64,000 nt of DNA from Chloranthus sessilifolius (Eukaryota; Streptophyta; Magnoliopsida; Chloranthales; Chloranthaceae), in the NCBI GenBank assembly GCA_021018995.1, contig CM037592.1, positions 79,425,301-79,489,300 on the forward strand, read 5' to 3'. A program made the translations under genes and the position numbers. Below, one piece after another: positions 1,698-60,456 of the stretch. The notes under the pieces are model-generated. The model did not search any database, was not told the origin of the DNA, and saw only the letters and a program-made list of their open reading frames with translations. Numbering within the stretch: position 1 is the first letter of the stretch; each line of letters starts with the position of its first letter.

Positions 1698-1895
1698 CAT
1701 TTAAGGACCCACTGCCCCCCAGGTTAAACCTGGCGTAACTAATAGTTGCCCCAGTGCATTTTGACCCCTGACTTGCCTGGTGCAACTATTAGTTGCGCCA
1801 GAACAGATTGCCCCTTTTCTTGCCTGGCACAACTATTAGTTGCGCCAGAACAAATCAGCCGAGAGTCAAACTTGGCGCAACTAATAGTTGCGCCA
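1698..1895 (-). promoter_or_regulatory. Palindrome cluster and TATA-like site upstream of accessory gene 2 (A)
   Basis: Four copies of the family-A palindrome lie at 1729-1754, 1776-1801, 1823-1848 and 1871-1895. The ideal form is arm GGCGCAACTA, one central A or T, then the reverse complement of the arm, usually extended by CC-T outside. Single-base deviations occur in some arms. On the minus strand a TATA-like CCTTAAATG (1698-1706) lies between the cluster and the gene start, so the copies sit where upstream promoter elements would be. Spacing between copies is about 47 bases. Confidence 0.75.
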
Positions 1896-2280
1896 CACTC
1901 CGAGCTCCCCCTCTTCAGCCATTTCGGGACCTAACTTGGGGGACTTACACCCCTTTTGTTTGTCTACTTCACACACCCTGTTCATTTAACAACTAAGCAT
2001 TTGTTCTGTTTATTTACATACAGGACCGACCCTACATCAAGGCATGCAACCCAAGGGGGTCACTTTCCAAAGACAGTTTGGGCCAATACATCCTGCAGAG
2101 AAGTAGATTTGATACCAAGAAATCGGGGCATAAAATCAAAGCGAGACTATCTCCTAAATGAAAATAAAAATAAAATTTGTTTCCAAAGTACTACATCGAC
2201 CATTCCCCAAATTGTTTAAAACAGATCCAAATCAAATTCCAAAAAATACTGAGTTTTCCAAAAAAAAAGAAACTAATAGC

Positions 2281-5200
2281 CTATTCCTGGTTGGCGCCCT
2301 TTGACTTCTTGCGACGACGAGAAGAACTCTGAAAAGTCCACATGTCCCCCACCCTAGACCACGCCTGCGAGATCCTGATGAGCAAGGAGCGCGATTCCTT
2401 AGCACGAGCACACTGTAAAGCACAAACCAAAGTCAGGAGTCAGAATCAGTTAAAGGGCAAATGATGATAAAATTTATAAAGAGGAATAGAACAGCAGGGC
2501 ACTCACCGTCTCAACCTCCCTAAGCTCCACCAGGTGACGATGGTATGCCGCATACTCCATGGCTGAGTTGAAGTCCTATATTCAGAACAATGCAATATCA
2601 AAGGTCAGGACGACCCTAAAAGCATGTGCAGAAAGAAATCGAAATGAAAAGAGGTTGGGCCATCAAAGGACTTATCCCTGGGACCACCTCAGGAGGAGGA
2701 ACGCGAGCCGCTTCAGCAGAGAGTTGTGCCTGTCTATCTACATCAGCGCAGAGGCTCGAGAGGAAGCTATCATTAAGGCGCCGAAAGGTCCCATAGACTA
2801 CAGAGGGATCACCAATAGGGATACCAGCGTGAGAAGTCCCCGACGGACCAGCACCCGACGAGCCCTCACCCAAGGGACCCGCACCAGAGGGATCCACCCC
2901 CGACATACCAACCGCACTAGGTTCGCCTTCACCATTTGAATCATCCCCTGGGGTGAACTGTGAACAAGATAAAGATCCACTTAAAGGGGGCAAAAGCCAA
3001 ATAAAAGTAGAAAGGGAACTAATCCAAGCCAGGACAAATTACCTGACCAAGCGGGCCACCAAATGCCAGAAAATTAGCGCTGGGAACAAAGCGCAGCAGA
3101 ATGAACTGATGGGGCAAGCACTCGTACCAAAGGTGATAGTCCCCAGGCACGTGAAGGGCATGAGTAGGGAACCCATTATTGAAGAAGGCCGCTGTGAGCT
3201 CCTCAATACTGCTGAGAAGATACCAGACATCTGCCGGAGGGTCCACGGGAATGGCATAATAGCCCTGAAACTGATGCACCACTCGCTCTCCCAAATAATA
3301 AAATTTGGCCCACGCTTCGTAGGAGAACATGATGCGGCGATTATTGAATAAACCGGAGGATCTGCTCAAGTCAAAAAAGAGGAGAGAAACCAAGCAAGCA
3401 ACACCTCAGTTAAGAAAAATTCCAAGCTAAAAATGAACAAAGGTTGAGAAAAGAGGGGAGAGTTGTTACCTGCTCGGGGACCATCAAATCAAGTTGGGAC
3501 CATAGGCTCATTTCCAGGTGCTTTAGGCCCACATCACAGCATCAGGCCTGATGCCAGTTGCTGAGAAGAGGATAGGTGAGCGCCTTCGAGAAAAGGAGCG
3601 GGTGCCCGGGGTGGAAGTGGTGTTATCCCCACACCTAAAGAGACAAGCACAATAAGAACAGGTCGATAGCACATAAAGGACATGCAAAAAATGTATATGA
3701 TGTGGATGAGGGCAAAGGGATGAAGAATTACCTCCAGGACGACCCAAAAACCCATGGCAGACTTCGAGTCCCAGGTCGTAACCCGAGACAAATTATACAT
3801 CAGCCACGTGTACCCTGCTCCACCCCAGTCATGCCTAGGGACGTCACCCCAATTGTCCATCACGCTCAATAGGGCCAAGCTGACTCGGCCCCAGTTGGCA
3901 TTAGTGAGGAGGGTCTTGCCCAGCAAGAGTAGGAGCATGATACGAGCTAAGACGATTGCCCGCTCTGGCGCGATGTAGAGCACCCTATCTGGCTAACCCA
4001 AGTCCACCAACTCATCAGCAGAAAAAAGGGAGGTCAGCCAGGACATCTTGACCTCTGTGCCATGAGTCTGCCCGCGAGGAGGATAGGCCCCAATCAGTCA
4101 AATAATGTCCTCCCGACTCGGTACTGCCAGATCGGATATCTGTATCCCCCCAATCCTGATACCGATAATCATGGCCCAATCGACGGGCGTCAACGTCATC
4201 TTGGCGGCATGTGGAATGTCATGGTCTCAGGGTGGAACCTCTTAATCAGGGCCTTCAAATAGGCAGCGTCAGCCCTCATAGCGGGACAAGATAGGAACTC
4301 CCCAAAGCCCACCTGCTCCAACAAGACCTTCATCACGGGGGAAACATAGAGGTAGAACTCGTGAAAGTCGAGCCACCCCCCACGGAATACAATATTGGGC
4401 AAGTTCTACACCCAAAGAAAATGCACATCAGATTAAAGAAGCAAAAAAGGAAAGAGTGCATAATGGAAATAAATTGAACCTTTCGCTTACCTTGCCCGCT
4501 ATCCCAAAGTTTGAAATGTGAGTATGGTGCTGGTGAAGGAGGCCGACCCAGGCGGCCTCAACCTGTATCTCGAGCCATGGGCCCGCTCTCCGTTCCACCC
4601 AGACAAACTCCTCCCCTCGCGGGCCACGAATAATCTTGGGTCCCTCCCCGAGGCCCTCCTCGGGAATGTGCTCATCACCACCTAATATACTGGGGCAACA
4701 AGGCAATCACAGCTGGTCAAGTACAAAGGTACATGCACAACTTTGTTCTTTCAAAAACAACAAAAAGAAACCTTTTTACTTTACTTTGTTCTTTCTTTCA
4801 AAAAAAAAAAACAAAAAAAACAAAAACAAAACAAAAACAACACAAAAAAACCCTTTACTTTACTTTGTTTCTTTCTTTAAAAAAAAAATAAAAAAACAAA
4901 AAAACAAAAAAACAATAAAAACAACACAAAAAAACCCCTTTACTTTGCTTTGATCTTTCAAAAAAAAAAAAAAAAAAAAAAAAACCCTTTACTTTGTTTA
5001 AACGAAAAAGGGGAAGAAGAAATAAGAAAAGCAAAAAAAAAAAACCTTTACGTTTCAAAATTTTTTAAAAAAAATCCCTTTCTTCTAGGCTCCTAAAAAT
5101 CGAAAAAACCAAAAAAAAAAGGAGAAGCCTTTCATTTATAAACAAAACCACAAAAATCCTTACTATTAGAAAAACAAAAAAACAACCACAAAAATAATAA

Positions 5201-5760
5201 TAATAATGCCTTAGTTGTTTTTTTTCCAAAATCTCCTAATTCCAAAGGAAGTCAAAAACCATTCCTTTAATTTTCAAAATAAGAGATCGAAAATCCCTTC
5301 TTCTTTCTAATTTAGCGTTCAAAAATAAAAAGAAAAGACCAAATATCCAATATATGCAAAATAAAAACATACAAAAAAAAGAAGAAAAAGAAAAGATAAT
5401 AACAAAAATAAAGTCCATTCTATATACACAAATAAAAACAAACAAACAAAAAATATATATATATATATACATTAGGCACCAACAAATTTCACAAAATAAC
5501 AAAAATAGGGCACCATTCATGAAAAATTGCCAACAAATCATCAATAAACAGGCATACAATGGAGATAAACCATTATCCATCAAAGAATGCAAGATCATAG
5601 CAATATTTACAAGAAAAAAGCAAGAGAAATTAAAGGAAGTTTTAATGGTTACCCTTTGAAAGAGGATGGGTTTCTGATCTAGCGTAATCCGGCGCTCGAT
5701 CCACACAAGCAGGGCAACGGCAATGAGGCACGCAAAGAGGCAATGAAAGAAAACCCTAGG
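2281..5760 (-). pseudogene. Accessory gene 1 of element A (plant mobile domain-like, multi-block, antisense)
   Basis: This antisense gene has several coding blocks separated by short gaps with GT-AG type borders. The blocks lie at about 4495-4710, 3735-4400, 3470-3610, 3040-3400, 2670-2960, 2500-2575 and 2281-2415. A probable leader exon lies near 5650-5760, before a T-rich (sense-strand) gap. The 4196-4402 block (FRGGWLDF, RFHPETMTFHM) and the 3534-3983 block (LLLLGKTLLTN, DWGGAGYTWLM, GFWVVLE) match the plant mobile domain (aminotransferase-like, PF10536 type). The end is basic (RRRKKSKG), a possible nuclear signal. The same block order occurs in element B at 53232-55541. It appears broken about two or three times. 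The role in the element is unknown. Confidence 0.7.
4740..5240. repeat. A-rich low-complexity stretch (leader gap of accessory gene 1, A)
   Basis: Long runs of A interrupted by short CTTTACTTTG blocks. On the sense strand of accessory gene 1 this is a pyrimidine-rich stretch between the probable leader exon and the first coding block, as expected of a plant intron. Element B has a comparable A-rich stretch at the same place (55580-56380). Predicted peptides here are low complexity. Confidence 0.75.
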
Positions 5761-5837
5761 AAGAAGTGGTTTTCGGTTTCAAAGAAGGAGGGGGAGAAAA
5801 TTTTGAGATAAAGCCCCCCAGCCCAAACTCGGGCTGT

Positions 5838-5978
5838 TTAAATTCCCCAGCCAAGCCTGGCGCAACTAATAGTTACGCCAGGCGACTTTTGGCCCTCCTT
5901 TTGCTTGGCACAACTAATAGTTGCGCCAGGCTATTTTGAGGCCCCTAGTGGCCTGGCGCAACTATTAGTTGCGCCAGG
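5838..5978 (-). promoter_or_regulatory. Palindrome cluster and TATA-like site upstream of accessory gene 1 (A)
   Basis: Three copies of the family-A palindrome lie at 5856-5882, 5904-5930 and 5952-5978, with 48-base spacing between starts. The third is a perfect inverted repeat around a central T. A TATA-like TTTAAA (about 5838-5844) followed on the minus strand by CAGCCCGAG lies between the cluster and the gene. Element B has a similar TTTTAAAACTGCCC-type stretch at the equivalent place. Confidence 0.75.
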
Positions 5979-6185
5979 TACTTAGGCCGGATCTTGGGCC
6001 TGGTGCGGGCCAGATAGGAGGGCTGGTTCCCCACTTCCTCCTTATTTGTTTGTTTTATCACCCCCGGCAGATGCCCACGCTCCCGGAACAACATTTCAAT
6101 CATCCACTGACTTGCCGAGAAAGCCGTGCTAAAATAAAGGCGGACCGAGGTAGATGAGCGCCTCGATCCTACACCAGAAATATAA

Positions 6186-6520
6186 AAAGTCCAAAAAAGA
6201 GAAAAAAAATCCCCATAGAGAAGCTTCAAAATCCAAAAAAAAATCACATAAAATAATAGCTTCAAAATCCCAAAAAATTCATATAAAATAATAGCTTTAA
6301 AATCCCAAAAAAAATCCCCATAGAGAAGCTTCAAAATCCCAAAAAAATTAACATAAAATAATAGCTTCAAAATCCCAAAAAATTCACATAAAATAATAGC
6401 TTCAAAATCCCAAAAAAATCCCCATAGAGAAGCTTCAAAATCCCAAAAAAATTCACATAAAATAATAGCTTCAAAATTCTAAAAAAAATCACATAAAATA
6501 GTTTGAAAATCCAAAAAATA
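6186..6520. repeat. AT-rich tandem repeat of element A
   Basis: About ten imperfect units of roughly 35 bases. They are built from the phrases AATAGCTTCAAAATCCC, AAAAAAATTCACATAAAAT and ATCCCCATAGAGAAGCTTC. Two unit types (CACATAAAATAATAGC and CCCCATAGAGAAGC) are interspersed irregularly. It lies between the accessory gene 1 promoter and the 3' tail. I see no coding potential beyond repeat-derived frames. Confidence 0.85.
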
Positions 6521-7783
6521 GATCGGAAACAGATCTGTATTCCCCGCGGAGATGCACATGCATGTTCTGATGCAGTAAAATGTCGATATTTTATCAGCAA
6601 CACCACTGTGCTATAATAACGTCCTAAGTCTAAGGCACGCCTTGGATTCTGGATCCTTCTTCAAGGAAGGAGCAACGGTGTCAATCCCTGTCAAACAGTC
6701 AATGTTTCGATCGAGTCAACTCCACTGCTAAATCTTTTGAGCGATGAGCGCTCTGTTTTGGATTCGTGTGACCTTAAGTTGTCTTAAAAGGTCAATCGTT
6801 AGTTGAGACCAACCTGTTGAGAATGAGATTATGTGTCAATCAAACTATGTGCAACCATACATTCAAAAGGGATCATTTCCCTTTTTTTATTTTCTGCTGG
6901 CTTAAAACCTGTATGGGCAGCGGTATCCCTGTAAAGTGTACGCCATGCGTCTGGATATCTGTATGATGGTCGTTTGTCCCCACAAATTGTACCCGGGCGG
7001 GTCCAGGTCAGGGCTTTCATCACCTTTGTTGTTGCTTATTGCCCCTGATGGGTGCATGATTATGCATAGTTAATTGATGTTTATGATCATTGTCGGCGAA
7101 AGTCAGGATTGGATGCCCCTTTTTGGGAGGTGCCCAATGTTTGGCTAGATCTATTTAAGAAAGTCGAAACTGGATACTCTAGGTCATGCTGAGCTGAGGC
7201 ATGCTTTTCAAAAAATGGCACGTACTCCTAAAAAGCGTTGTGACATCTATTCACTTCGCTCAGGTGATCATGCTAAATAAACTTCGGGATTGATGGGTTC
7301 GCCCAAAGATCTCGAACCCTGCTTTCAGCAGGGGCACCCGCGAATAATCCAATGAGGTCGTCGAATGCCTTGTAGGATTGGACGCAAACTGTGGAGTCTT
7401 GCGTGTGTTTACTTCGCGCCTATCTTTGAATGTGGGACGATCACACCTCTTACTTACGAAGCTGTTGCATTCAGAATGAATCTTGAACATCAATCACCTT
7501 CAAATCATCTCGAGAAGTGGACATTTTTCCCGACTAACGGGCTTTTCCAACTCGAGAGGTGAACATTTTTCCCAGCTATTGGGCTTTTGCAACTCATTCC
7601 ACCTCGGTTATGCCCAGTAATGTCAATAAGCACTTGGGAACCGATTACCTCGAGAAACGAATGATTAGCCTGGCACCCCAGTGCTTTCGTTTTGTCACCA
7701 TGTTACTCACTCGATGTTTGTAGTTAGTTTCAAATACAACAGACCCATCAGTAATGCCTTGGGCCTCTTCGGATGTCTCTTTT
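6521..7783 (+). other. Non-coding 3' tail of element A
   Basis: I see no credible gene here. The segment from about 6810 to 7783 is recognisably related to 57700-58811 in element B. Shared phrases include CAAACTATGTGCAA, GGCTTAAAAC, GCTTATCGCCCCTGATGGGTG-like text and GTTATGCCCAGTAATGTC. Such conservation between two diverged elements suggests a role in the RNA genome rather than in protein coding, but this is inference. Confidence 0.65.
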
Positions 7784-7828
7784 CTTTGGCATACGATCAC
7801 TAGTGATCGGATACCAAAGAGGAGCATC
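7784..7828 (+). promoter_or_regulatory. 36-base stem-loop and polypurine tract before the 3' LTR (A)
   Basis: Bases 7784-7819 form a near-perfect inverted repeat: CTTTGGCATACGATCACT pairs with AGTGATCGGATACCAAAG, with only two mismatched pairs. It runs directly into a purine stretch (CCAAAGAGGAGCATC) ending at the LTR start. Purine stretches here prime plus-strand DNA synthesis in LTR elements. The same arrangement occurs in element B at 58812-58856. Confidence 0.85.
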
Positions 7829-8229
7829 TGTAGACACCCAAATTTGGCCCAAGGCCCGATCGAAACACCTTTCGAGAGAGGTGTAATTCTGAGCTTCTGA
7901 TGGCATGTATGAAACCCTTAGAAATTACCAAAAACCCTTAAGAATCACCCTAGATCCCTTAAGAACCTACCCCGAACCTTTAGAAATCAATTTCGACCCT
8001 TAGAACCCATTCCGAACCCTAAACCTAACCTTCCCGGGCAATGTATGAAGAGTGGTGCACCAGGACTAGCTGAGGTCTTTTACTAATATCAAATCATATA
8101 CCATTGAAAAGATGACTTCTCTAGCTTCTCAATGGTCCAAGAATCGCCCCAATCGAAGGTATACATCAAAAGATATGGCAAACCGAGCCTGGAGGGCATG
8201 AATGTGAAGTCATGTGGGCCCCTTAGGGA

Positions 8230-8439
8230 CTTGGCACAACTAATAGTTGCGCCAGCATTAAACTTTGCTTGGCGCAACTAATAGTTGCGCCAGGCCATTT
8301 TTCCCTTATTTTAAGCCTGGCGTAACTAATAGTTGCGCCAGATTCAAAAGTGAGCCCCATCCTCGCGAGCTGACTTCTAGGCACTATACATTACTGTTTT
8401 ATTGTACATTTACCTGGCACAACTAATAGTTGCGCCAAG
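8230..8439 (+). promoter_or_regulatory. Palindrome cluster in the U3 of the A LTR
   Basis: Four copies of the family-A palindrome lie at 8230-8255, 8268-8294, 8316-8341 and 8413-8439. They are the same unit seen near both accessory genes of this element. They lie about 280-490 bases upstream of the LTR TATA box. Confidence 0.85.
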
Positions 8440-8720
8440 CATATGAACAGTAATTGTTGGGATTTGCCCCAAATTTCATGTTTGGGGTTTGACTTGTTGA
8501 CCACCTTAACCTTTGGGGTGTGTTTTGCTAGTTCTGTTGCACCCTTTTGAAGCCTATTTGCACCCCTTTAAGTGGCTTAAGGCCTCACCCCATCATCCAC
8601 CATTGGAGGACCTTCTCACACATTTCAAGGCTCTAAAAACCCTAGGAATCCTTAAATGTGAGATTACCTAATTGCTAAATCCATTTAGCTCTTAAGTGAT
8701 CTCCTAATCCACTCATTTCC

Positions 8721-8730
8721 TATAAATAGA
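8721..8730 (+). promoter_or_regulatory. TATA box of the A LTR
   Basis: TATAAATAGA followed by GCCCCCCTCC. Both B LTRs have the same kind of box followed by a C-rich stretch, and the C/E LTR-like block has it on the minus strand. Transcription of the element probably starts about 30 bases downstream. Confidence 0.8.
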
Positions 8731-9456
8731 GCCCCCCTCCCCTTGGTTTAAGGGTTGAGAATTTTGCTTAAGAGAGAAAGAGCTCCACGTGAGAAGTTCT
8801 TCCTCCCTTTGGTGCACTATTTTCACCTAAAATCCAGAATTCAAAAACCCTTCCCAAGCTTTCTCTTACACCCAAAACCCTTAGCCCAGGTGTGTGTGAT
8901 CCCCTAGCCTCTCTTCTCCATCTCCTAGCTAGTAGGCCTTAGTGGTTAGAACCCCTTTTTCCACCATTCAAGCCTCCAAAAGCTCATCAAAAGCAAGCCA
9001 AGCAAGGCTCCTCTATCGTGCTGCAAGGGCCCGAGGGCTCTGGTTCTCCCCTTTCTTCTCCTATCTCTTTCTAGCTCTCTCCATCCTCCCATTTGTGTCG
9101 TTACGCCGCCGACTTTTCGGTAGGAACGGAGGGGCACAAATAGGATTCTAAGCCCTTTTGGGCAAGAGAAAGCTATTTTCTTTTCTTTTACTTTATTTTA
9201 TTTTTGGCCATTAGTAGAGACCGCGTTAAGCGGGTTGATCGGGTGCCCAACAACTTTCCGATCAATAACCGAAACCCCTACTTAAGAGCCTTTGATGCGG
9301 ACCGGATTCAGAGTCATATTTTTAGCACTTAGGTGCTCATAAAAATGAACTAGGTATCCCGGGACACCGAAAGCTCCGGGTGGCGACTCTATATTTTTCG
9401 TTAGAGAGTGCATCGTCGTGATGAGATCATCTCGATTCTCATGGTTGGTCTCTACA

Positions 9457-37793: not shown

Positions 37794-38073
37794 CTTAGCT
37801 ACAGTATCTGTCATTAAATGCTCGAATTTCCTCCATCTGGTTAGACCCTTTGACCATCCCTTTGGTTGAGGTGAGTGTCTTAAGGTTGGTTGCACCCCCT
37901 TTGAGCTTATTGGCAACCCTTAAATCACCTATGGTCTCACCACATTATCTACCATTGAAATCAGTTTTCCAAACCTCTAGGACCCTAAAAACCTAGAAAA
38001 CCTTAGATAGAGGATTACCTAATTGCTAAACCAATTAGCTCTTAAGTGACCCACCCTTTAACCCACCTCTTCT

Positions 38074-38085
38074 CTATAAATAAAG
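38074..38085 (+). promoter_or_regulatory. TATA box of the B 5' LTR
   Basis: CTATAAATAAAG followed by AGGCCCCCCTC. The matching box in the 3' LTR is CTATAAATAGAG at 59725-59736. Confidence 0.8.
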
Positions 38086-44888: not shown

Positions 44889-45104
44889 AAACTTTGATTC
44901 ATTTCAGGTGGAAGAATCGTCACCATCGTAGGTGAGAGCAAAGAAGACAGGGAGTGGAGCGCTCTGCATATTGAGAATCCAAAAGTGCTTGACATGCCGC
45001 ATACAGCAGATGATACTGATCTCCATCGATTTGAGTATGACTTTTCAGCCGTTACTCTTGAGTCACCTGAGAAAACCCCTGCTAAAACTGGGGTAGGAAT
45101 TGGT

Positions 45105-45176
45105 GCAGCAGTGTTCATGCTCCACAAATGGGGCCACCAAAAAGGGAAGGGTTTGGGTCCACGCCTTCAAGGAAGA
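45105..45176 (+). pseudogene. G-patch motif of element B
   Basis: FMLHKWGHQKGKGLGPRLQG matches the glycine-rich G-patch pattern, a short RNA- or helicase-binding motif. It lies between protease and reverse transcriptase inside the larger open stretch 44985-45335. G-patches after the protease are known in some retroviruses and occur in plant Ty3/gypsy polyproteins. Confidence 0.7.
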
Positions 45177-46067
45177 AGAGACCGTCTGTCAACGACAAAC
45201 AGATTTGGCACAGGCTATAGGCCCCTTGAAGAAAAAGTCGAGAGGCCAAGGAAAGATAAGAACGGCGATGCAGCAGAGGAATCAACCTGGAAGAAGAAAC
45301 TCCCGCCTGACCCCACATCCGTCAAACCTTCGTGAGCGTCGGGGTGGTAAAGATTGATCTGAATGGGGAGACAAGGGTAACCCCGCACAAGCCTGTTTCC
45401 ACCCATCCTACCAACCCTTACATCACCCCTCCAGACCTCGAGGTGGACTTAGCCGCCCTCTCCTTATTTGAGGAAGAAGTCCCCCGGTCCACCTGTCACT
45501 TTGACACCGGCCACTTTAGGCCCATCCCAACCATAGAGGATAGGGTCCCAGAGGATCCCTCCATAAACATGCTGAGGGGGGAATTGCAAAAGCCTACTGA
45601 TGTCGCTTCCAACCAAAGAGGTAAAGGCCAAGCCTCGTAAGTAAGTAACTAGGCATCTTTGCCCCAACTCTTGGGAGCCGCCAAATGCCGTGAATACGGC
45701 ACCGGCTCTCTAAAAAAAATAACCTGTAAGAAGTGAGGTTAGCCCCTGGGACACTCTACCCTATATATATAGAGATCAACCTCGCCAGGGGCCAACCTCC
45801 GAAAAATTGTGAAAAACTATAAAAATAGAAAAAATACCAATTCTAAAAATATTGTCCTTTAAAATTCCCAATAAAATTGAAAATGATGTCGTGATACCCG
45901 TCCCACGCGAAGCCGACCCCTTCCCTGTATAAATACGAGAAGAGGTAGGAGCCACGAGTCTGGACAAGGAAGGTCAAGTCGATGAGCTCCCCAATGAGCT
46001 CCTCAAGCAATTTGTCAATTTTGAGCATGGCCCTACCCCGATCGTCGAAGAGACAGAGGACGTCAAT

Positions 46068-47000
46068 TTGGGCACCGAAGAGGTCCCTAGAATTACCAAA
46101 ATCGGATCATCGCTGTCCCCTGCGGAGAGAAAGGGTATGATAGACTTCCTCCGGTCATACCAAGGCGCCTTCGCATGGTTGTATGAAGACATGCTTAGTT
46201 TGGATACCGATTTGGTTGAACATGAGTTGCCACTTTACCCTGATTGCAAGCCGGTTAAACAGAAGCTGAGACGTCTTCGACCTGAGTGGATGTTGAAAGT
46301 CAAGGGCGAGGTCATTAAGCAGTATGACGCGGGTTTCCTCATGGTATCCAAGTACTCTCAATGGCTGGCCAATATCGTCGCCGTACCAAAGAAGGATGGG
46401 AAAGTTCGAATGTGCATTGATTTCTAAAATCTCAACAAGGCAAGCCCAAAGGATGACTTCCCATTACCCCACATAGATATCTTGGTCGATAACACTGCTA
46501 AGCACGGGATGCTTTCTTTCATGGACGGGTTCTCGGGCTATAATCAGATTAAGATGGCAGAGGCCGACCAAGAGAAGACCACATTCATCACTCCCTGAGG
46601 AACCTTCTGCTACAAGGTGATGCCATTCGGGCTCAAGAACGCTAGGGCAACCTACCAGAGAGCAATGACGACCCTATTCCACGACATGATGCACCGAGAG
46701 ATCGAAGTGTATGTCGATGACATGATTACTTAATCGCCGAAAGGGGATGACCACTTGGTAAACCTTCAGAAGCTGTTCGAGAGGTTGAGAAAGTACAGGC
46801 TACGGTTGAATCCCTAGAAGTGCCCATTCGGTGCCATGTCAGGAAAGTTATTAGGTTTTATCATCAGTAGGAGAGGCATCGAGGTCGATCTGACCAAGAT
46901 CAAGGCCATCACTGAAATGCCACCACCGTCTACAGACAAAGAGGTCAGAGGCTTTTTAGGCAGAGTCCAGTATATCAATTAGTTCATTACATAGTTAACT
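46068..47000 (+). pseudogene. pol: Reverse transcriptase region of element B
   Basis: Successive motifs are PVKQKLRRLRPEW, WLANIVAVPKKDGKVRMCID, LSFMDG/YNQIKMAEADQEK-type text, MPFGLKNA/YQRAM, YVDD near 46710 and LGFIISRRGIEVD. This is the polymerase that copies element RNA into DNA in working relatives. It is a fossil with several breaks. Confidence 0.92.
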
Positions 47001-47114
47001 CCGATATGCGCACCGATCTTCAAACTACTAAGGAAGGACTCACCAGTTGAGTGGAATGATGACTGCCAAGCTGCATTTGATAAGATCAAGGGTTACCTCC
47101 TAAATCCTCCAGTA

Positions 47115-47465
47115 TTGGTACCACCTGTACCTGGTAGACCCCTAATAATGTATCTGTCCACGACGAAATTTTCCATGGGTTATGTGCTAGGACAGCATGA
47201 TGAGACAGGAAGAAGAGAGCAGGCCATCTACTACCTGAGCAAGAAGTTCACTGATTATGAGACGCGCTACTCTCATATGGAGAAAGCATGCCTAGCGCTG
47301 GTGTGGGCTACTCAAAGGCTTCGACATTACCTCTTATCCCAAGCCGTTCTACTTCTAGCACAGATGGATCCGTTGAAGTACCTGTTTGAGAAACCTGCTC
47401 TCACTGGCCGAACTGCACGATGGCAGCTTTTATTATCCGAATTTGACATCACGTACGTCACTTAG
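47115..47465 (+). pseudogene. RNase H region of element B
   Basis: It has the phrases PLIMYLSTTKFSMGYVLGQH, REQAIYYLSKKFTDYETRY and EKACLALVWATQRLRHYLL. This is the ordinary Ty3/gypsy RNase H, directly after reverse transcriptase. It is a fossil. Confidence 0.9.
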
Positions 47466-47561
47466 AAATCAATCAAAGGGCAGGCACTTGCTGATCATCT
47501 TGCTAAGAGCCCTCTGCCTGACTACGAGCCTCTAAGGACTGAATTCTCCAATGAAGATATC

Positions 47562-47981
47562 TTGTTCATGACAGAAGATGATACAGAAGAAGCAGAAGAA
47601 TCATGGATAATGCACTTTGACGGAGCATCACATGTCGAAGGCCAAGGAGTTGATGCCATCCTGATTTCACCAAGAGGATCCCATGTACCGATCTCTATCA
47701 AGCTCAACTTCCCCTGCACTAACAATATGGCTGAGTATGAAGCTTGCGCCGCCGGTCTACAGGCAGCTCTCGATCTGAATGTAACTCACCTTCGAGTTTT
47801 TGGCGATTCACAGTTAATCATATGCCAGATGAATGGTGACTGGAAGACGAAAGACGAGAAACTGATCCCCTATCATGAACACCTCGAGGATCTGATAGCT
47901 TGCTTCCAAGATGTGACTTTCTCATATGTCCCCCGGATAAGAAATCACTTTGCCATTTGCAACTTTGGCGTCAATGATTGA
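47562..47981 (+). pseudogene. Archaeal-type RNase H of element B
   Basis: ESWIMHFDGASHVEGQGVDA, NNMAEYEACAAGLQAAL, LRVFGDSQLIICQMNGDWK and VTFSYVPRIRNHFA match the additional RNase H of the Tat lineage. Its position between RNase H and integrase supports the lineage call for B. Confidence 0.92.
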
Positions 47982-48059
47982 AATCCCCTATGGTGTTGAG
48001 ATGAAGCCGATCATGATCGAGCAGAGGAATGAGCCGGCCTTCTGCCTCTAGATTGAGGA

Positions 48060-49338
48060 ACCTACAAAGCCTGATGATGAGCCACCTTGGTTCTCAGATA
48101 TCAAGAATTTCCTCGAGACCCTGACTTTTCTAGAGGATACATCCAAAACAGACCGACGAACCATTCAACGTTTAGCAGCAGGTTACGTCATTTGCGGGGA
48201 ATGCCTCTACAAGCGATCATACAATAACATCTTACTCAGGTGCCTCACTGAAATTGAAGCAGTCAAAATTATGAAGGAAATCCATGAGGGAGTATGCGGA
48301 GCCCACGTCAGCGGCCACATGCTCGCTAAGAAAATCCTACGACAGGGATACTTTTGGACCACCATGGAATCGGATTGTTGCAAACATGTTCAAAAATGCT
48401 ACAAGTGTCAGGAACACTCCAGTCTGATACATGCTCCTGCCATTGATCTTCACTGCATGACAACTCCTTTGCCATTTGCTACCTGGGGCCTTGACATTGT
48501 AGGAATGATTAATCCGAAAGCATCGAACAGACATCGATTCATCCTCGTCGCCATTGAATACTTCACCAAGTGGGTAGAAGGGGCATCCTATGCCAATATC
48601 ACGGCCAGTCATGTCGAGAAGTTTCTCAAGAATAATATTGTGTGCCGATTCTGAGTACCCAAAGATATCATAATAGACAACGACACAAACTTTGTGAATA
48701 AGCACATCCGAGACTTCTGCGAGCAATGCATGATCAAGCATCATCGATCATCCTCGTATAGGCCTCAGACGAATGGAGCCGTAGAGGCGGCTAACAAAAC
48801 TTTGATCCGCATTCTTGAGAAGATGGTAGTCACTTACAAAGATTGGAGCGAACAGTTACCTTTTGCACTTTGGGCCTATAGAATGTCTATCCGTACTGCT
48901 ACAGGGGCAACCCCGTTCTCCCTTGTGTATGGGACCGAGGCCGTCCTCCCGGTAGAGGTTGAAGTGCCCTCGCTCCAAATCCTCATAGAATCAGGCTTAC
49001 CCGAATCAGAAAGAGAGAGATCCCGCTTTGAACAATTAAACTTATTGGACGAGAAGAGACTCCTGGCCTTATGTCACACTCAGGTTTACCAGGGGAGAAT
49101 CGCACGCGCTTATAATAAATGTGTCTGCGATCTAGATCTAAAGGTAGGAGACACTGTACTGAAGAAGATCTTCCCTTCCCTCCATGCCGATCCGAGAGGA
49201 AAGTTTAAGCCGAACTGGGAAGGACCATACGTCATTCGGGAGGTGCTGCCGAGATACGCCATCCACCTCGCCACCATGGACGGAGATCATCTTCCTGAGC
49301 CCATCAACGCTGGATATGTCCAACGGTTCTACTCTTAG
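48060..49338 (+). pseudogene. int: Integrase of element B
   Basis: The zinc-finger segment is GVCGAHVSGHMLAKKILRQG followed by HVQKCYKCQEH. The catalytic core holds FATWGLDIVGMINPK, VAIEYFTKWVEGASY and HHRSSSYRPQTNGAVEAANK. The C-terminal part has AVLPVEVEVPSL, HTQVYQGRIARAYNK and KFKPNWEGPYVI. It ends at PINAGYVQRFYS. The 48694-49338 part reads openly. In working relatives it inserts element DNA and makes the 5-bp duplication. It is a fossil with a few breaks. Confidence 0.93.
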
Positions 49339-51013: not shown

Positions 51014-52575
51014 TCAGGGGCAGGGGCCACGCTTCAAGGCACTGATCTCTACGAGAAGAGAGTCCTCACTGGCATTTCGATCAGTCAACCACCTACCATG
51101 AAGACTCTTTTATCGCCTCCACGAAGCGTCAGCTGCACTGCGAGACTCAGTCAAAAGCCCAGTCAACCGAAGAACCTCACTCTCGGCCGTAGCAGCTTTT
51201 ACCCCCGCCATCTCGGCTCTGTCCCTCTCCTTCCCCAAAGCCTCAGTCAAAGCCAGCTTCTCTACAGAAAGAGACTTAATTCTAGTCCGGAGCATCGTTT
51301 CCTTATATGGCCAGGGTCCCGTCTCTATCGCATCAATCGAAACAGGGTTAGGGGCAGGTAAGCTCTCAGATACCAGCCAAACCTTATAATCAGAAGAGAG
51401 GACGCCCCCCTGAACCAAGCTACACATGTGCGCTGAGAGAATATCAGGGAACACAAGGGCGGCCTCACAGTGCACGGCACGTGTTGGATATATCTGAATT
51501 GATGAAGCACCCAAGATGGGAAATAGTAGGTACTACCAATCAACCCCAAAAGCGTGATACCCTCACAATCCCGAGAGCGGACAATCGAAAAGGTGCCGTC
51601 CAACCAGGGAAGTTGCCAGATCAACTCCGCATCAGATAGCCACAGGCTCAGTTCCTCGATGCTCCCATGGGGCAGCCTTGAGCAGCGGGTCAGAAAGCCC
51701 TGAGCCACATCCCCTCTTACCAAGCAGAATCTCGGCACAGGCCCCATGATAGCCAAATGCTCTCCTAGCCAAATCTGAATGAGGAGTGGACTCCCGCGAA
51801 GAATCCCAACCCGGCCCGAGGCCGAGGCATCCAGGCCCCGATACAACTCAGCCAAGACTAGGTGTACCAGTGAATGACCTTCCTCCAATTTAGTCAAGAC
51901 GTCACATAACCCGAGGGAAAATGTCTCACCCCCAGTAAAGAAGAGAACTTCCGATATCAAATAAAGGGCAAAGGCCTTCACATTGAAAGGATCCCGGACA
52001 GGCAACTTTCAGAGACTTGAGTCACTAAAAAGTTCTCTCAGGAATTTCACTGAGCACCTAGTGGGCCCGCCGGCGAAGCCTTTCTCATACCCACCCTTTT
52101 TCAAACCAAGAACCGCATAGACCGCCTTGGCATGCCCCGGTTTGGGCACCACTTTGGCAAGCCCCCGATGCATCCTCAAGCCGGTAATAGAGGCTTGCTC
52201 CTCCAAGGTTGGGGTGAGCTCCCTAAACCCGAATCTGAAGACATGAGCCCCATGGTCCCATGACGCCAAAGCCGCCTGTAGGAGGTCGGGCAACAATGGA
52301 ACAGCAAGGAGAGAGGAAAGGCGGGATAACCCGAGGCAATCCAGAACAGCGAGCTCGCCCTCAGCCAAGCTAGCGCACCACTTTTGCAAATAATTAGGCC
52401 CCGAGTCCAAACAGGGAAGTACACTAACCCCATCCCTCGTATGAGAATTTGGGCCGGGAAGCGGGTCCATAGACGTACAAAGATGTCCTATATAAAGCTC
52501 AGTCAATGTAGGGCGATGGACTCGCTTGTCAAGAAAAAGGGGAAGAAAGAGAAAAGAAAGAAAAAGGAGGGGCAA
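51014..52575 (-). pseudogene. Accessory gene 2 of element B (DUF7745-like, antisense)
   Basis: A mostly open block of about 500 codons. The start is either MPLLFLSF at 52575 or, judging by A, MDPLPGPNSH near 52464. In order it holds FRFGFRELTPTLEEQASITG, GGPTRCSVKFLRELF, ALYLISEVLFFTGGETFSLG and IVRSRDCEGITLLGLIGSTY. A C-terminal coiled coil follows (LRTRIKSLSVEKLALTEAL). The pattern resembles the plant DUF7745 family, as far as I remember it. The same gene is in element A (63-1660), with close phrase matches. It has one or two breaks. A palindrome cluster lies directly upstream. It may be a DNA-binding or regulatory protein; this is inference. Confidence 0.75.
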
Positions 52576-52589: not shown

Positions 52590-52832
52590 GGTGAATAGTG
52601 AGGCAAAGAGGGCTGGGCGCAGATTATAAGGAACTCGTCGAGCACTAGTTAGCACCAGTTATATGAGGCGTATATAATATATACGCCAAGGAAAAAATCT
52701 ACATTTTTTTGCCAGGCATATATATTATATATGCCAGGGTAACATGGTAGATGTTTTGCTAGGCGTATATATTATATACGCCAAGGCAAAATTTTAAACT
52801 TTTTGCCAGGCGTATATAATATATACCCCCAG
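52590..52832 (-). promoter_or_regulatory. Palindrome cluster upstream of accessory gene 2 (B)
   Basis: Four family-B palindromes lie at 52665-52690, 52712-52738, 52759-52785 and 52806-52832, again 47 bases apart. The first and third have perfect 21-bp cores, and the second is a perfect inverted repeat with CATATATA-type arms. On the minus strand CCTTATAATC followed by TGCGCCCAGCCC (about 52607-52632) is TATA-like and lies between cluster and gene. Confidence 0.8.
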
Positions 52833-55579
52833 TTAATGAGGGCAGGGAAGTGTGGCTCCCCTCGCATTAGCCCATTCTTTTCCACTTTCCAAGAGCGGTA
52901 CGGATTTTGCTTAGCCTACTTTTTTATCTCGGGGCAGCCCACAGGCGGGCACGCTCACGCACCCATGGGAAACCCTCGGATGACGTGGCACCCATGGGTC
53001 ATATGCGGGTAATCACGTGAGCTCACCCCCATCATTGGAGGGGCTCTGGCCCGCTTCATGCCAAACAAACAAAAAAAAAACCATAAAGGCAAAGAGATAA
53101 ACAAACGGAGCATTCATATAAACCATAAAAGTTGTGAGACCATCCAAAAAAAATCAAAAGAAAATTATTACATATTCTCCAATATTTCAAAATCTAAACT
53201 ATTTCACTGTTTCAAATTTTCAGAAAATGAACTAATCCTGGGCAGCCCCCTTTGACTTCTTCCGGCGTCGGGTCACGCTTTGAAAGGTACGGGTCTCCCC
53301 CACCTGAGTCCACACCTGAGAGATGTGGCCAAGCAGGGAGCGCGACTCCTTTTCACGAGCACGCTGCATAAGCACACGAAGGGCCTTCAGTTAGGGAAAC
53401 AAGCAGAAAGTATATATGAGGATGACTAGATACAGTCAATATTCACTCACCACCTCAACCTCCCTAAGACCGACAATGTTGCGGTAATACTTGGCTTGGT
53501 TTACGGCTGACTCATGATCCTGCAGCAAAAAGATAAAGAGAGAGGTATCAGTCACACAGGCCATCAGCATGATCCAAGAAAACGGAAGAGCAAGGTAACA
53601 AGGGAGAGATTACCCCAGGGATCAGCTCAGGGGGTGGAATCCGAATAGCTTCAGCATGCACGCCTTCTTAGCCACATCGGCACACATACGCGACAGAAAG
53701 GCATCATCCAAGCGCTTAATTGTCGGCAGCGCCAGCACCAGTAACCTCATCAGGAACAGCTGCCTCATCCCCTCATCTGAATCGTCATCCTGTCCAAACT
53801 ATAGAGAGAAACAATCTTTGTTCAAATAGCAGGGCAATTAAGGTAATCATATGGAAGGCTGCTAATAGAAAGAGGAAAGAACATTACCTGAGATCGCAGA
53901 CCACCAAAAGCCAAAAAGTTGGCGCCAGGCACCAATCGGGGCAGCAAAGAACAATAGGGCAGAGACTCATACCACATCTGATATCCCCCAGGAAAGAGAA
54001 GGTCATCAATGGGGACCCTGTGGTGGAGAAAGCGAGCAGTAAGCATTTCGATAGAACCCTCAGGAGCCAATACATCAGCTGGAGGAGCTTGGGGCACAGT
54101 AAAAAGAGGTCGATACTGATGAATCACCCTCTCTCCTAAGTAATAGGCCCTAGCCCAGTACCCATAGAAGAAAATAATGTGTCGATCTAACAAAAGGTGA
54201 GAAGGGCCCACTGCAGCCAGGTTCCAGAAGGGGGATCCGACGTAGGGATCAAGGATGACCTGCTCAATAAAAGGAGGGATTTATACATTTGGTTAGAACC
54301 CACAGCATATAGGAGCTATCAAATTTGTGAAGAGAGAAATTGTTATACCTGCTCAGGGATCAGCAGATCAAACTGAGAGCGCAGCCCTAACTCCAGGTGC
54401 TTCATACCCACGTCCCGACGACGGTTCGCGTGCCAATTGCTCATAAGGGGGAACGTGGGAACCTCCGAGAGAAGCAGAGGGCGACCAAGTTGGAAATGTA
54501 GATACCCCGTTACCTGGGAAAGCAAGCAGATAAAAATAGATATGCCAAAAAAAAGGGGGGGACGAATTAAGACCAAAGGATAAAATACCTCAAGTGCGGG
54601 CCAGAAGCCCACAACAGAGTTGGAGCCCCCAAGAACGGCTCGCACCAAGCTAGACATGAGCACCGCGTAACCAGCACCTCCCCAATCAAACCGATGTACA
54701 GTGTCCCAGTTCACCATATGACTGAGAAGGGACAATGAGACCTGCCCTCCGCTGGTATTTGAAAGGAGAGTCTTGCCCAAGAGGAACAACAGAGAAATGC
54801 GGGCCAGCATCAACACACGCTCGAACTCGAGATAAATGGCCGCATCAGGCTGGCCCAGATCCACTAACTCCTGGGGCTCAAACAGACCAACCAGCCAAGA
54901 TAACTTGACTTCGGAACCACAAATGTTCTCGGAGGTTGGGTAGGCCCCTATCAGCCGAGTCACCTCCTCCCTATCAGGCGTGCGGGCAGGTATCACTGGC
55001 ACCCCTCCAATTCGAACCCTAGTAATCATGGACCAGTCCACGGGTGTGAGGGTCATCTCAGCCATGGCCATGTAAAATGTCATGGTCTCGGGGCGAAAGC
55101 GCTCTATCTGGGCCTTCAGATAGGACGTGTCGGCCCTCACGGCAGGGCATGAAATGAAATCCCCAAAACCAGCTTGGGCGAGCAGGTCCTTCACCACCTG
55201 GGAGAGATAAAATACGAGGCACTGGAGGTCGAACCAGCCACCCCGAAACATGATGTGTGGTAGAGGCTACAAGCAAAGAGGATCTGTCAAATGGGAGCAA
55301 AGTGGTATAATGAAGACATCAAAGGAAAAGAAAAAAAAGGGGCTCATCTGTTTACCTGACTAGCGATCCCAAAGTTGGAAATATGGGTATGCTGACAATG
55401 AAGGAGGCCAGTGCGGGCGACTTCACCTTGCATTTCATACCAAGGTTGGGAGGAGCGCTGTGAAACAATGAACTGCTCCCCATGAGGACCATAGGCCATC
55501 TCGGGCCCCTCCTGTGGATCCTGCCCTTCATAGCCAGACATCTGAAAATGTGGAGCACATCAGTATAGGAAAGGGCTGC

Positions 55580-56477: not shown

Positions 56478-56678
56478 ATAGAACTCAAGAAAAATCAAAT
56501 GCCAAAACCCTAAGGGGCTGTCCCGGACTTGAGAAAGAAGGAGGATAGAACTCAAGAAAAATCAAATGCCAAAACCCTAAGGGGCTGTCCCGGACTTGAG
56601 AAAGAAGGAGGATAGAACTCAAGAAAAATCAAATGCCAAAACCCTAAGGGGCTGTCCCGGACTTGAGAAAGAAGGAGG
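56478..56678. repeat. 67-bp tandem repeat, three copies
   Basis: Three near-identical direct units start at 56478, 56545 and 56612. Each holds ATAGAACTCAAGAAAAATC, AAACCCTAAGGGGCTGTCCC and GGACTTGAGAAAGAAGGAGG. The array lies in the probable leader exon of accessory gene 1. The near identity of the copies suggests recent expansion. Confidence 0.9.
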
Positions 56679-56726
56679 GAAGAAGATAGAGTTTGAAGGA
56701 GGGGGTCCCTTTTGTGCTCGGGCTTG

Positions 56727-56903
56727 GGCAGTTTTAAAAACTGCCAATTTTGGTCAGGCGTATATAATATATACGCCAGACCATTATTTTGCCAATTTTG
56801 GTCAGGCGTATATAATATATACTCCCGGCCATTTTTTGCTGCAGATTGGCTAGGCGTATATATTATATACGCCTGACCAAAAGTGGCAGTTTTAAAACTG
56901 CCC
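56727..56903 (-). promoter_or_regulatory. Palindromes and inverted repeat upstream of accessory gene 1 (B)
   Basis: Family-B palindromes lie at 56755-56779, 56803-56828 and 56851-56876. The outer two are each flanked by a second palindrome, GGCAGTTTTAAAACTGCC (about 56727-56745 and 56886-56903). The whole is an inverted repeat with arms of about 55 bases. TTTTAAAACTGCCC on the minus strand is a TATA-like candidate and matches the equivalent site in A. Confidence 0.8.
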
Positions 56904-58811
56904 GGCCATTTTTTCAGCTTTGAGGCCCGACGGACCCCCCTGTATGCTATGGACCAAGGCCCGGTCCCTCTTAGAAGCCCACGTACCATCAAGCGATGGT
57001 GCACACATCCCCAAATGGCCCTTCGAGCTCTCTTCGATTGGCCCAAAGGGACCGTGCTATAATAAACGAATCTAAATCTGTAAGCACCCGCTGAGTGCTC
57101 CATAAAATCATAAAATCAAAGAAGGAGAAAAAAAAAATGCTGAAAAATGACAGCAGTTCCCAAGGGAGCGTTGCAACGACTGTTTTCCCCACTCCAACAG
57201 CCGTGTTAAATCAATTTGGAATGATCGGGTTCACCCGAAAGTTCTCAAACCCCATTTTACACAGGGACACCTCATACCTGATCCGGTAGGCAAATGAACT
57301 CATCCATCACCGGTCGCTCCTAAGAACGTACACCTAGCCCAAGATCTTCCCCAGCAGAAGTCGAGACCTGATCCGGCAGGCAAACCAAGGACCTATCACT
57401 GGAATGTGCACGCCCTTAAGGTATATCAACATGGCAAGTTGATTCGCCTAAGGATACATGCAAAAATAAAAGCAGTTTGAGCATGCTCAAAATCTCGAAC
57501 TGACATGTAAGAAGAAAAAAAGAGAAAAAGAAAAAGGAAAAAGAGAGGAAATAATGACCTTTTGTTATGAAGTAAAAATCCTGAGTAGGTTGACCCCACC
57601 TTCCAAGCGTTAGCTCTGATCATCCACCTTCGGATCTATGTTGACCAAGAGTATACCCGACTTCAGACCATTCGAAAAGTCTATTGTCAGTCGAAATTGA
57701 CCCGTCAAAAATGAAATTACAACCAACCAAACTATGTGCAAATATACAGACCGAAGGGCTCATTCCCTTTTATTTCCTTTTACACAGGCTTAAAACTTGT
57801 ATAGGAACGGTGTCCCTGTTGAATGTATGCACTTGCGTCTGGGTATCAGCAGGATGGTCATTTGTCCTCGTAAATTATACCTTAGGGTCGAGGCTTTCGT
57901 TCGCACCTATTTGCTGCTTATCGCCCCTGATGGGTGTCTGTCTGTGCATAGTTAGTAAGATGTGATTTCATTAGGGATGGAGGCTAGAATTGACTATCTC
58001 TTTCGATGGATGTTTGGTTCTAGCCGGATCCTTTTTAGCTTTGTCTCGAGCTAAAGTACCCTGGTTCATGTGAATCAGGAGCACCTCGCCACCGAAACGA
58101 GCACATCCCCAAGGCGCACCCATCCCCGGCGGAGCGCACGCATTCTTAAAGCGTATCAACTGACATTTGATCGACTTAAAGAGTTGTGCAAGAATAAAAT
58201 TACCAGAGGTCCTTGATCTTTGCTTAGACGCTTTGAAACAAAAGAAAATTTTAAAAAAAAAAAAAAAAAACACAAAAAAAATTACTCTGAAAATGGGCAT
58301 GCATTCCCAAGAAGTTTTGCAACATCAATATTCGCTCCACTCGAGTAAATCATGCTAAAGCAACCTTGAGGTTGATGGGTTCACCTAGAAACTCCGAGCC
58401 TTACCTAGGTAAGGGCACCCATGGCCAATCCAATGGAGCTGTCAATACCCCATAGGATTGGACACATTGTTTAGGCCTTCGCCTTGTGTACTTCACGTTG
58501 ATCCCGAAGCATAGATCGATCACCTCGTTTCATGGAGCTGTTTGGTTCAGATTAATACTCAACATCACAAATCTATAATTTCCCTCAGGAAGTGGACGAT
58601 ATCCCAGCTAGCGGGCTTACACTTTTTGTGATCATCGCAGTTATGCCCAGTAATGTCGCAATGCGCTTGGGGACTGTTAGCTTTGAGGTACGAACAATAT
58701 CCCGAAATAAGAGGGCTTACGTATACTCACCATCACCATGAATGTTTGAGAATTGAGTTGAACCAGGTGGACCCATCAAACATGCCTTGGACCTCCTCGG
58801 ATGTCCCTTGT
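56904..58811 (+). other. Non-coding 3' tail of element B
   Basis: No gene is credible. From about 57700 it aligns by eye with 6810-7783 in element A. An A-run at about 58250-58280 is low complexity. Confidence 0.65.
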
Positions 58812-58856
58812 CTTTGGCATCCGATCATTAGTGATCGAATACCAAAGAGGGGCATC
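58812..58856 (+). promoter_or_regulatory. 36-base stem-loop and polypurine tract before the 3' LTR (B)
   Basis: Bases 58812-58847 pair as CTTTGGCATCCGATCATT with AGTGATCGAATACCAAAG, with a few mismatches. The purine stretch CCAAAGAGGGGCATC ends at the LTR start. Position and size equal those in element A (7784-7828). Confidence 0.88.
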
Positions 58857-60456
58857 TGTAGACACCCAAATTCGGCCCAAGGCCCGATTAGTCTGTACTC
58901 CGGGAGAAATGCACTCCTGTGCTTCCGATGGCACCCCTGAACCCTTGGGAATCTATCCAAACCTTTAGGAATCACCTAAAAACTATTAGAACCATTCCCC
59001 CAACCCTTAGAGAGCACCCCTAAACCCTAGGATCCCTTCCTGGGCTCAACTTAAACCCTTCTGAGCATTTGATGGGAGGAGAGATGCAAATTTTTATGCA
59101 GACTACTACTGAGGATGAACCATATACCGTTGGAAAGAAGACTTCCCCAGCTTTCCAACGAGCCAAAGATCACCCAATATAGAGTTGTGGTTCAAAAGTT
59201 ATGGCCGTTTGAAGGATCACATAAAATCATGACTTTTTGCTCAGGCGTATGTATTACATACGCCCAGCAAATTTGGCCCCAGTTTGGTCAGGCGTATGTA
59301 ATATATACGCTTGACATTTTTAGGCTAAATTTGTCTGGGTGTATATAATACATACACCCAGCATTGGCGGCCACCAACACGGGCACCCATCTTCTCAGAT
59401 TCCCCCTGGTTTTCATGAAAATTACTGTACATAAATTGGGCGTATGTAATATATAACAGTTTCTGTCATTAAATGCTCGAATTTCCTTCATCTGGTTTAA
59501 CCCTTTGACCATCCCCTTAGTTGAGGTGGGTGTCTTAAGGTTGGTTGCACCCCCTTTGAGCTTATTGGCAACCCTTAAGTCACCCATGGTCTCACCCCAT
59601 CATCTACCATTGAAATCAGTTTCCCAAACCTCTAGGACCCTAAAAACCTAGAAAACCTTAGATAGAGGGTTACCTAATTGCTAAACCAATTAGCTCTTAA
59701 GTGACCCTCTAACCCACCTCTTCTCTATAAATAGAGAGGCCCCCCTATTCCCAAAAGGGTTGAAAAATTAAGGTTGAGAATTAAGCATAAGAGAGAGAGC
59801 CCTAGTGAGAGAAAAATATGTGTTATTTTACATTCTTCAACAAGAATTCCAGCATGCTTAGTTCATCATTTTCAATCCTTTTCAACCATTAGATCACCCC
59901 TTGTTAATCAAGCTTAGTCCCTAGCTTCATCCCACACTTCCTATCTACCGAATCCTAGCATTAGAACCTATTCCTCTACCGTTTAAGCCATTTAAAGCCA
60001 TCAAAAGCACGCCGAAGCGAAGGTCTTCTACGGTGCAACAAGGGCCCGTGAGCTCCGGCTCACCCCTCTCTTCCTCTACCTTCTTGGTGTTTCCTCCGTC
60101 CAAGGATTCAAGCCGTTATACCATCAAAAATTTTGGTTTGGCTCAAAGCTTGATAGGACCGTATTACCTTCGGGCAAGGGGAAGCTCCGCCCATTTATTT
60201 TTATTTTTGGCCATAGATAGAGACCGCTACATGCGGGTTTATCGGGTGCCTAAACCCTTCCCGATCGATAACCGAAGCCCCTACCCTAGAGCCTTTGGCA
60301 AAGACCGGTAAATCAGAGTCATATTTAGCACTTCGGTGCTCAAAATATTGATTTAAAGGTTTCCCGAGTCACCAAAAGCTCCGAGTGGCGACTCTACATT
60401 TTATTCCATCGCGAGTGCATCGCCGCGAAGGGTCCGAGAGGATCCATGCTCGCACA
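58857..60456 (+). repeat. 3' LTR of element B (1600 bp)
   Basis: It starts TGTAGACACCC and ends CTCGCACA. It matches the 5' LTR along its length but is 29 bases longer, mainly because the palindrome region differs. The TATA box is at 59725-59736 and the primer-site-like relic TGGCGACTCTA at 60386-60396. Differences from the 5' LTR are mostly C/T and G/A. Confidence 0.95.
59242..59458 (+). promoter_or_regulatory. Palindrome cluster in the U3 of the B 3' LTR
   Basis: Copies lie at 59242-59267, 59289-59313 and 59336-59361, with a truncated half at about 59437-59458. The copy at 59289-59313 has no counterpart in the 5' LTR. The third 5'-LTR copy is here reduced to one arm. Confidence 0.8.

Follow-up and report, generated by a model that had tools for sequence, protein, structure and literature searches.

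Two related long terminal repeat (LTR) retrotransposons, A and B, lie in a 64,000-nucleotide stretch of Chloranthus sessilifolius DNA (assembly GCA_021018995.1, contig CM037592.1, positions 79,425,301 to 79,489,300; the window), and each carries arrays of 21-bp palindromes in its LTR and upstream of two antisense genes, g1 and g2, that encode plant mobile domain (PMD) proteins. The palindromes are of one type throughout A and of another throughout B. For this pair of elements, a coordinated switch of one recognised sequence over homologous promoter arrays is well supported by the sequence comparison. The explanation that we favour, with a probability of roughly 0.6, is that a PMD-type regulator binds the dyad arrays and that its specificity shifted after A and B split.

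We called sites by matching the 21-bp A and B patterns with at most three mismatches, using 100 shuffles per pattern as a control. This gave 11 A-type sites, all within 1732-8436, and 17 B-type sites, all within 37622-59358, with 0 matches in the 100 shuffles of either pattern. A listing of dyad symmetries recovered the identical 28 sites. A motif-blind scan for odd palindromes, set to require 9 or more of the 10 arm pairs, found 27, of which 25 were A or B sites; the other three of the 28 sites fall under that limit. The palindromes are real and far above chance. None of the 28 lies within the gag-pol region or the PMD genes as delimited here, and two exact motif scans of viral contigs returned 0 matches each.

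For the comparison of letters we used 22 half-sites from A and 28 from 14 sites of B, omitting three whole sites in the B 3' LTR, also of B type, as duplicates of the 5' LTR. A first-pass annotation of the window had described both motifs as 21 bp long with GGCG/CGCC outside and TA-W-TA inside, which the counts bear out: the inner TA-W-TA is present in 50/50 half-sites, and 11 of the 200 outer GGCG letters deviate, only at positions 3 and 4. The same annotation had placed the difference between types at arm positions 5-8, read as CAAC in A and TATA in B. As strings these do differ, but the list of changes needed revision: position 6 is A in both types, position 5 overlaps (C19/T3 in A, T28 in B), and position 0, just outside the 21-mer, has to be added (T in 22/22 in A against A14/G10/T4 in B). 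TATA was right in part and becomes TATR, with position 8 divided A22/G6 in B against C in 22/22 in A. Position 7 is A in 22/22 half-sites of A and T in 28/28 of B, so that the types can be told apart without overlap at positions 7 and 8 only; at these two positions every cluster of an element is uniform (22/22 and 28/28), as had been claimed. G1, G2, A6, T9 and A10 are invariant across A and B, and a weaker GYY is common to the flanks of both types immediately outside the site.

The arrays can also be compared by their place and layout. Sites per array number 4/4 (A/B) at g1, 3/3 at g2 and 4/4 in the LTR, where the B number is inferred from three whole sites per LTR and a fourth place that is intact in the 5' LTR but has lost half of its site in the 3' LTR. 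From first to last site centre the g1 arrays span 142 bp and the g2 arrays 96 bp in both elements, and with both B LTRs counted, 17 of the 20 neighbour distances are 47 or 48 bp. LTR spacings are unlike (38, 48 and 97 bp in A; 47, 47 and about 101 bp in B). The distance from the centre of the last LTR site to a TATA box is nevertheless 295 bp in A (8426-8721) and in B (37780-38075), the B box having been picked as the counterpart of that in A from an LTR that holds further TATAWA matches. The centre base agrees in 10 of 11 A-B site pairs (permutation p 0.025; A,T,T,A at g1, A,A,T at g2, one mismatch in the LTR), with B LTR sites taken from the 3' LTR and the fourth from the 5' LTR. Because number, array length at g1 and g2, centre base and LTR TATA distance all correspond, the A and B sites look orthologous when their sequences are set side by side. 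The framework of the arrays has been retained, while the recognised letters differ at every site. A spacing of 47-48 bp is about 4.5 helical turns at 10.5 bp and fits the assembly of protein on alternating faces of the DNA.

Both antisense genes belong to the PMD family. B g2 matches PMD (PF10536) at 8.7e-19, B g1 at 3.3e-13 when read through one stop (its halves alone giving 1.2e-08 and no match) and A g1 at 3.3e-15 when read through its stops; pieces of A g2 reach E values of 0.0007 and 0.14, both below the cut-off, and a piece at 3534-3992 that overlaps the first of them has no Pfam match. Between A and B the PMD proteins are about 57-62% identical, g1 60%. Third codon positions are the most divergent in every stretch compared: differences at the three positions number 114/82/210 of 346 in g1, 60/42/93 of 159, 23/9/36 of 70 and 34/33/58 of 107 in g2, and at the gene ends 17/17/34 of 58 in g1 and 18/14/25 of 56 in g2. 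Synonymous sites of g1 are saturated (proportion of synonymous differences, pS, 0.79), and two g2 stretches have pS of 0.74 and 0.63. The ratio of nonsynonymous to synonymous divergence (dN/dS), computable for two g2 stretches and not for g1, is 0.13 and 0.29. Judged by this codon pattern, the g1 and g2 proteins are maintained by selection. By eye, g1 has a coiled-coil-like C-terminal stretch and g2 ends in a basic tail, RRRKKSKG, that is a candidate nuclear signal; both are kept in A and B. Conservation with B extends the C-terminal part of A g1 down to 78, the frame of B g1 is lost beyond about 51433, and the common region of A and B holds no extra genes that we could find besides g1 and g2. 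Searches for g1 relatives gave 0 matches among the best 8000 candidates scored in a large protein collection, presumably one without plants, and 0 of 41 candidate stretches among prokaryote contigs.

An in-frame TGA stands at the identical codon of g1 in A (1100-1102) and B (52009-52011), both on the minus strand, with the frame conserved on either side; it may be an inherited stop, repeated CpG decay of CGA, or a site of readthrough.

We propose that the arrays are binding sites of a sequence-specific, dyad-symmetric regulator shared by every copy of an element lineage. The likeliest candidates are the PMD proteins of the element, one of them or both. Bound to the U3 part of the LTR, ahead of both antisense genes and close to the first sense open reading frame (ORF), such a regulator would turn transcription on, or keep silencing off, and with its own gene among its targets it would act in positive feedback. 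After the A/B split its specificity would have moved between half-sites of the forms TGGCGCAACTA and RGGCGTATRTA, in either direction, and the sites, orthologous in A and B, would have followed, with array number, place and most spacings retained. A trans-acting, dyad-binding factor would be the simplest cause of the switch; single sites are very unlikely to have drifted independently, because three homologous arrays are uniform for type in each element. An element-encoded PMD protein is a plausible candidate for this factor, because both antisense genes are PMD genes that selection maintains and stand behind arrays, and binding as a dimer on a dyad fits the coiled-coil-like stretch of g1 and the basic tail of g2, although the binder may be g1, g2 or the sense ORF product. 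As its effect we infer activation or anti-silencing. The comparison suggests a DNA-binding regulator for each element, matched to its own sites. The first-pass annotation had proposed that protein and sites co-evolve: the coordinated switch stands for this pair, and an element-encoded partner is plausible from the sequence. In its fullest form, a Ty3/gypsy-encoded PMD pair acting as a private transcription or anti-silencing factor on 21-bp dyads about 4.5 turns apart, with specificity changing together with the sites, the proposal is tentative.

A host transcription factor could bind the sites instead, A and B having adapted to two host factors or to members of one family. Repeated boxes for host factors, such as stress-factor boxes, are frequent in plant LTRs, and the palindromes of Sireviruses mainly match stress-related boxes in PLACE (PMC2829016; here and below, papers are cited for the portions of their text that were covered). 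The binding of PMD proteins to the sites is itself deduced from sequence, which helps this alternative and counts against our own. On this view, however, the LTR and the two antisense genes would all need the host factor, and every array would have had to adopt the same new host site with no mixture of types. At 21 bp plus extended flanks, the dyad is also long for a single plant factor. We regard a host factor as unlikely, though the likeliest of the alternatives.

Another way to view the uniformity of each element is as homogenisation without any change of specificity, a single array type having arisen once and then, through recombination or template switching within the element, overwritten the rest. 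If one array had been written over another, the spacers of one element should be more alike than those of A are to those of B. We therefore compared spacers, as mean z, both whole and as inner parts with 5 bases cut from each end, taking B LTR spacers from the 3' LTR. Whole spacers gave 2.56 between different arrays of the same element, 2.10 between A and B at the same place and 1.75 at other places, so that they are somewhat more similar within an element; inner spacers, in contrast, gave 1.46 (n=48), 1.21 (n=15) and 1.41 (n=45), with no clear excess. Within arrays the values are higher (3.76 whole, 2.29 inner, n=12). Spacer identity is 0.56 between arrays of one element, 0.52 between A and B at the same place, 0.62 within arrays and 0.45 when shuffled. 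Turnover within arrays is thus visible in these spacers and copying between arrays not clearly so, and a precedent exists in VANDAL arrays, which evolve through tandem repeat turnover (PMC5735166). Copying between promoters would moreover have erased the array-specific counts, centre bases and spacings that match between A and B. Recent copying of one array onto other promoters is disfavoured by the inner spacers, the whole spacers leaving it some room, and we consider homogenisation alone improbable.

Least probable is that the palindromes serve as RNA hairpins (for packaging, dimerisation or as a source of small RNA) or as DNA cruciforms and not as protein sites: 25 sites fold as RNA at -4.4 to -13.9 kcal/mol, values that have no shuffled control, and maize Sirevirus LTR palindromes have been connected with small RNAs, but position 8 in B is an A-C mismatch in 4/17 sites and a G-U wobble in 2/17 (paired in 11/17; two of these six are LTR copies), so that half-site letters and not pairing seem to be retained, and the mostly fixed 47-48 bp spacing and upstream placement on both strands better suit DNA. 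Two other readings were also rejected or disfavoured. Deamination does not account for the A/B difference, the change at position 7 being a transversion and that at position 8 C against A or G; nor are the B sites simple TATA boxes, as the LTR has a separate TATA box 295 bp from its last site, and the A sites contain no TATAWA.

Further points weigh against a PMD regulator with shifted specificity. The greater similarity of whole spacers within an element is only partly the flank motif, and some homogenisation is possible. LTR spacings of 38 bp and 97/101 bp depart from the 47-48 bp rule, and the centre-base agreement is only modestly significant. The B g2 array lies inside a 187-aa stop-to-stop frame (56552-57115, minus strand), and a 177-aa frame at 5945-6478 overlaps one site of the A g2 array; we have taken both as chance frames. 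PDB sequence searches with g1 and g2 gave 0 matches, and modelling of g1 with AlphaFold from an alignment of two rows failed, with a mean predicted local distance difference test score (pLDDT) of 31. Direct contact of the Arabidopsis PMD complex MAIN/MAIL1/PP7L with chromatin is not known, according to the part of PMC9899485 that was covered. Finally, the comparison is of two elements, one of them a fragment and several of their genes broken.

Table 1. Positions of arrays, genes and repeats of elements A and B in the window
Feature	Position	Strand	Remarks
A g1 (PMD protein, in-frame stops)	78-1561	-	ATG at 1561 by reading
A g1 array	1732-1894		upstream of antisense g1; 4 sites, spacing 47, 47, 48
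A g2 (PMD-like, broken, several exons)	2275-4646	-	basic end RRRKKSKG kept
A g2 array	5859-5975		upstream of antisense g2; 3 sites, spacing 48, 48
A 3' LTR	7829-9430	+	start TGTAGACACCC; end approximate
A LTR array	8233-8436		in 3' LTR, ahead of TATA box (8721); 4 sites, spacing 38, 48, 97
B 5' LTR	37235-38805	+	target-site repeat AGGGT immediately 5' of LTR
B 5' LTR array	37622-37790		3 sites, lacking one unit that 3' LTR has; TATA box at 38075
B array before sense ORFs	39660-39821		follows 5' LTR and precedes first sense ORF; 4 sites, spacing 47, 47, 47
B pre-gag sense ORF region	40231-41879	+	proline-rich, two overlapping frames
B gag-pol region	42064-49338	+	frames interrupted; gag, reverse transcriptase (RT)-type RNase H, RVT_3, integrase zinc-binding domain
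B g1 (PMD protein)	51029-52470	-	ATG at 52470 by reading
B g1 array	52667-52829		upstream of g1; 4 sites, spacing 48, 47, 47
B g2 (PMD protein, several exons by reading)	53226-55541	-	basic end RRRKKSKG kept
B g2 array	56757-56873		first conserved exon of g2 begins about 1.2 kb downstream; 3 sites, spacing 48, 48
B 3' LTR	58857-60456	+	target-site repeat AGGGT immediately 3' of LTR
B 3' LTR array	59244-59358		3 whole sites; left half of a fourth at 59439

Element B occupies 37235-60456, with both LTRs present and a 5-bp target repeat on either side. Its two LTRs show 83 differences over 1553 aligned sites, of which 68 are transitions, giving a Kimura two-parameter distance (K2P) of 0.056, which at an assumed substitution rate of 1.3e-8 would put the insertion at about 2 million years ago. 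Pfam matches are RT_RNaseH (7.6e-27, 46995-47465), RVT_3, the extra RNase H or aRH (4e-18, 47466-47981), and Integrase_H2C2 (4.9e-07, 48052-48654); three further pol pieces (44385-44888, 45933-46427, 48655-49338) and the pre-gag sense ORF region have no Pfam match. The extra RNase H thus stands between RT-RNaseH and integrase, the order described for Tat/Ogre elements (PMC6317226), and g1 and g2 are PMD extra ORFs (PF10536) of the kind also found there. By its body plan, B is a Ty3/gypsy retrotransposon of the Tat/Ogre type, and it carries two antisense PMD genes. Element B may have inserted into D, another Tat-like element: reverse-strand pieces related to D (36111-36664 and 62569-64000) flank B on both sides; they contain no match to B g1 or g2 and no palindrome of the A/B kind.

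Element A is a 3' half only, from 1 to about 9430, collinear with B from g1 through the 3' LTR. With synonymous sites at or near saturation in the alignments, it is a distant relative of B. The A-B length change is 0 across the anchored exons and the 87 bp preceding the 3' LTR, which align without gaps, and 0 to 196 bp between other anchors. Just 5' of the 3' LTR a hairpin-forming sequence (about 7784-7819 in A, 58812-58847 in B) is kept in both elements, as is a block between the g2 promoter and the 3' LTR (6787-7072 in A, 57675-57954 in B) that has no shared open frame. Palindromes GGCAGTTTT(A)AAAACTGCC at 56727-56745 and 56885-56902 stand one on each side of the B g2 array, and a 67-bp tandem repeat in three perfect copies (56478-56678) adjoins that array.

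PMD proteins of Gypsy elements occur widely among flowering plants. Silencing is under the control of the host PMD proteins MAIN and MAIL1, but the literature covered establishes no DNA sequence as the direct target of any PMD. If cognate sites adjoin PMD genes, the question of PMD function becomes a binding test, in which two diverged pairs of protein and site serve as mutual controls. If the proposal is true, related elements would own private, non-crossing regulatory systems, Gypsy-encoded PMD proteins would gain a function and VANC a plant LTR counterpart, and private, sequence-specific self-activation would be suggested for plant DNA transposons and LTR retrotransposons alike.

Among known systems, the PMD-bearing Ogre/Tat elements resemble B in their extra RNase H, PMD ORFs and long non-coding regions (PMC6317226, PMC5418596). 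PMD ORFs occur in 57% of Ogre elements (PMC6317226), and Gypsy-encoded PMDs split into clades A1 and A2 (PMC5418596). Neither paper uses the word palindrome in its main text, and among the open-licence papers listed by our literature searches, judged by title and the start of the abstract, none describes palindromic arrays in Ogre elements that bear PMD genes. Antisense accessory proteins of Retand have been proposed as regulatory (PMC11963269, PMC7264820), the word palindrome appearing in those papers only in one reference title of PMC11963269. The host PMD proteins MAIN and MAIL1 have been linked to a promoter motif, 'DOWN' (PMC7156037, PMC9899485).

The first-pass annotation knew of no comparable case in LTR elements, which was too strong. 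Sireviruses have family-specific palindrome clusters in the LTR upstream of the TATA box, and nine env-bearing elements have linker copies, of which 77 out of 79 precede the env-like gene; four elements without env are also without linker palindromes (PMC2829016). They differ in being Ty1/copia, with palindromes of 10-20 bp, a CGG-CCG core except in Tnd-1, and up to 32 copies, and the portion of that paper covered names no element-encoded DNA-binding candidate. B has the gypsy-type order, RNase H before integrase, the core in A/B is GGCG...CGCC around TAWTA, and A/B are further set apart by the mostly 47-48 bp spacing and the switch at orthologous sites. The foamy virus Tas protein is an element-encoded activator that binds the LTR and an internal promoter (PMC4929722). 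Protein and virus are both unrelated to A/B. We know of no palindromic array of the A/B kind for Tas.

A close parallel is VANDAL/VANC of Arabidopsis, where short motifs in noncoding tandem repeats are element-specific, differ between related elements and have been proposed to co-evolve with an accessory protein (PMC5735166, PMC10398659); A and B likewise have element-specific motif arrays in noncoding DNA. VANDALs are, however, Mutator-like (MULE) DNA transposons, whereas B is an LTR element, with LTRs, gag and pol domains and a target repeat. The VANC21 motif, YAGTATTAY, is a 9-mer, in contrast to the 21-bp palindromes, and the word palindrome is absent from the main text of that paper (PMC5735166). 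VANC carries DUF1985/DUF287, whereas the accessory proteins of A/B carry PMD, DUF1985 in g2 remaining a lead below the cut-off (E=0.031, 14.7 bits against 35.1). Binding by VANC21 has been demonstrated in vivo and in vitro (PMC5735166, PMC10398659), whereas for A and B it is predicted. The A/B system is not a member of VANDAL/VANC but parallels it.

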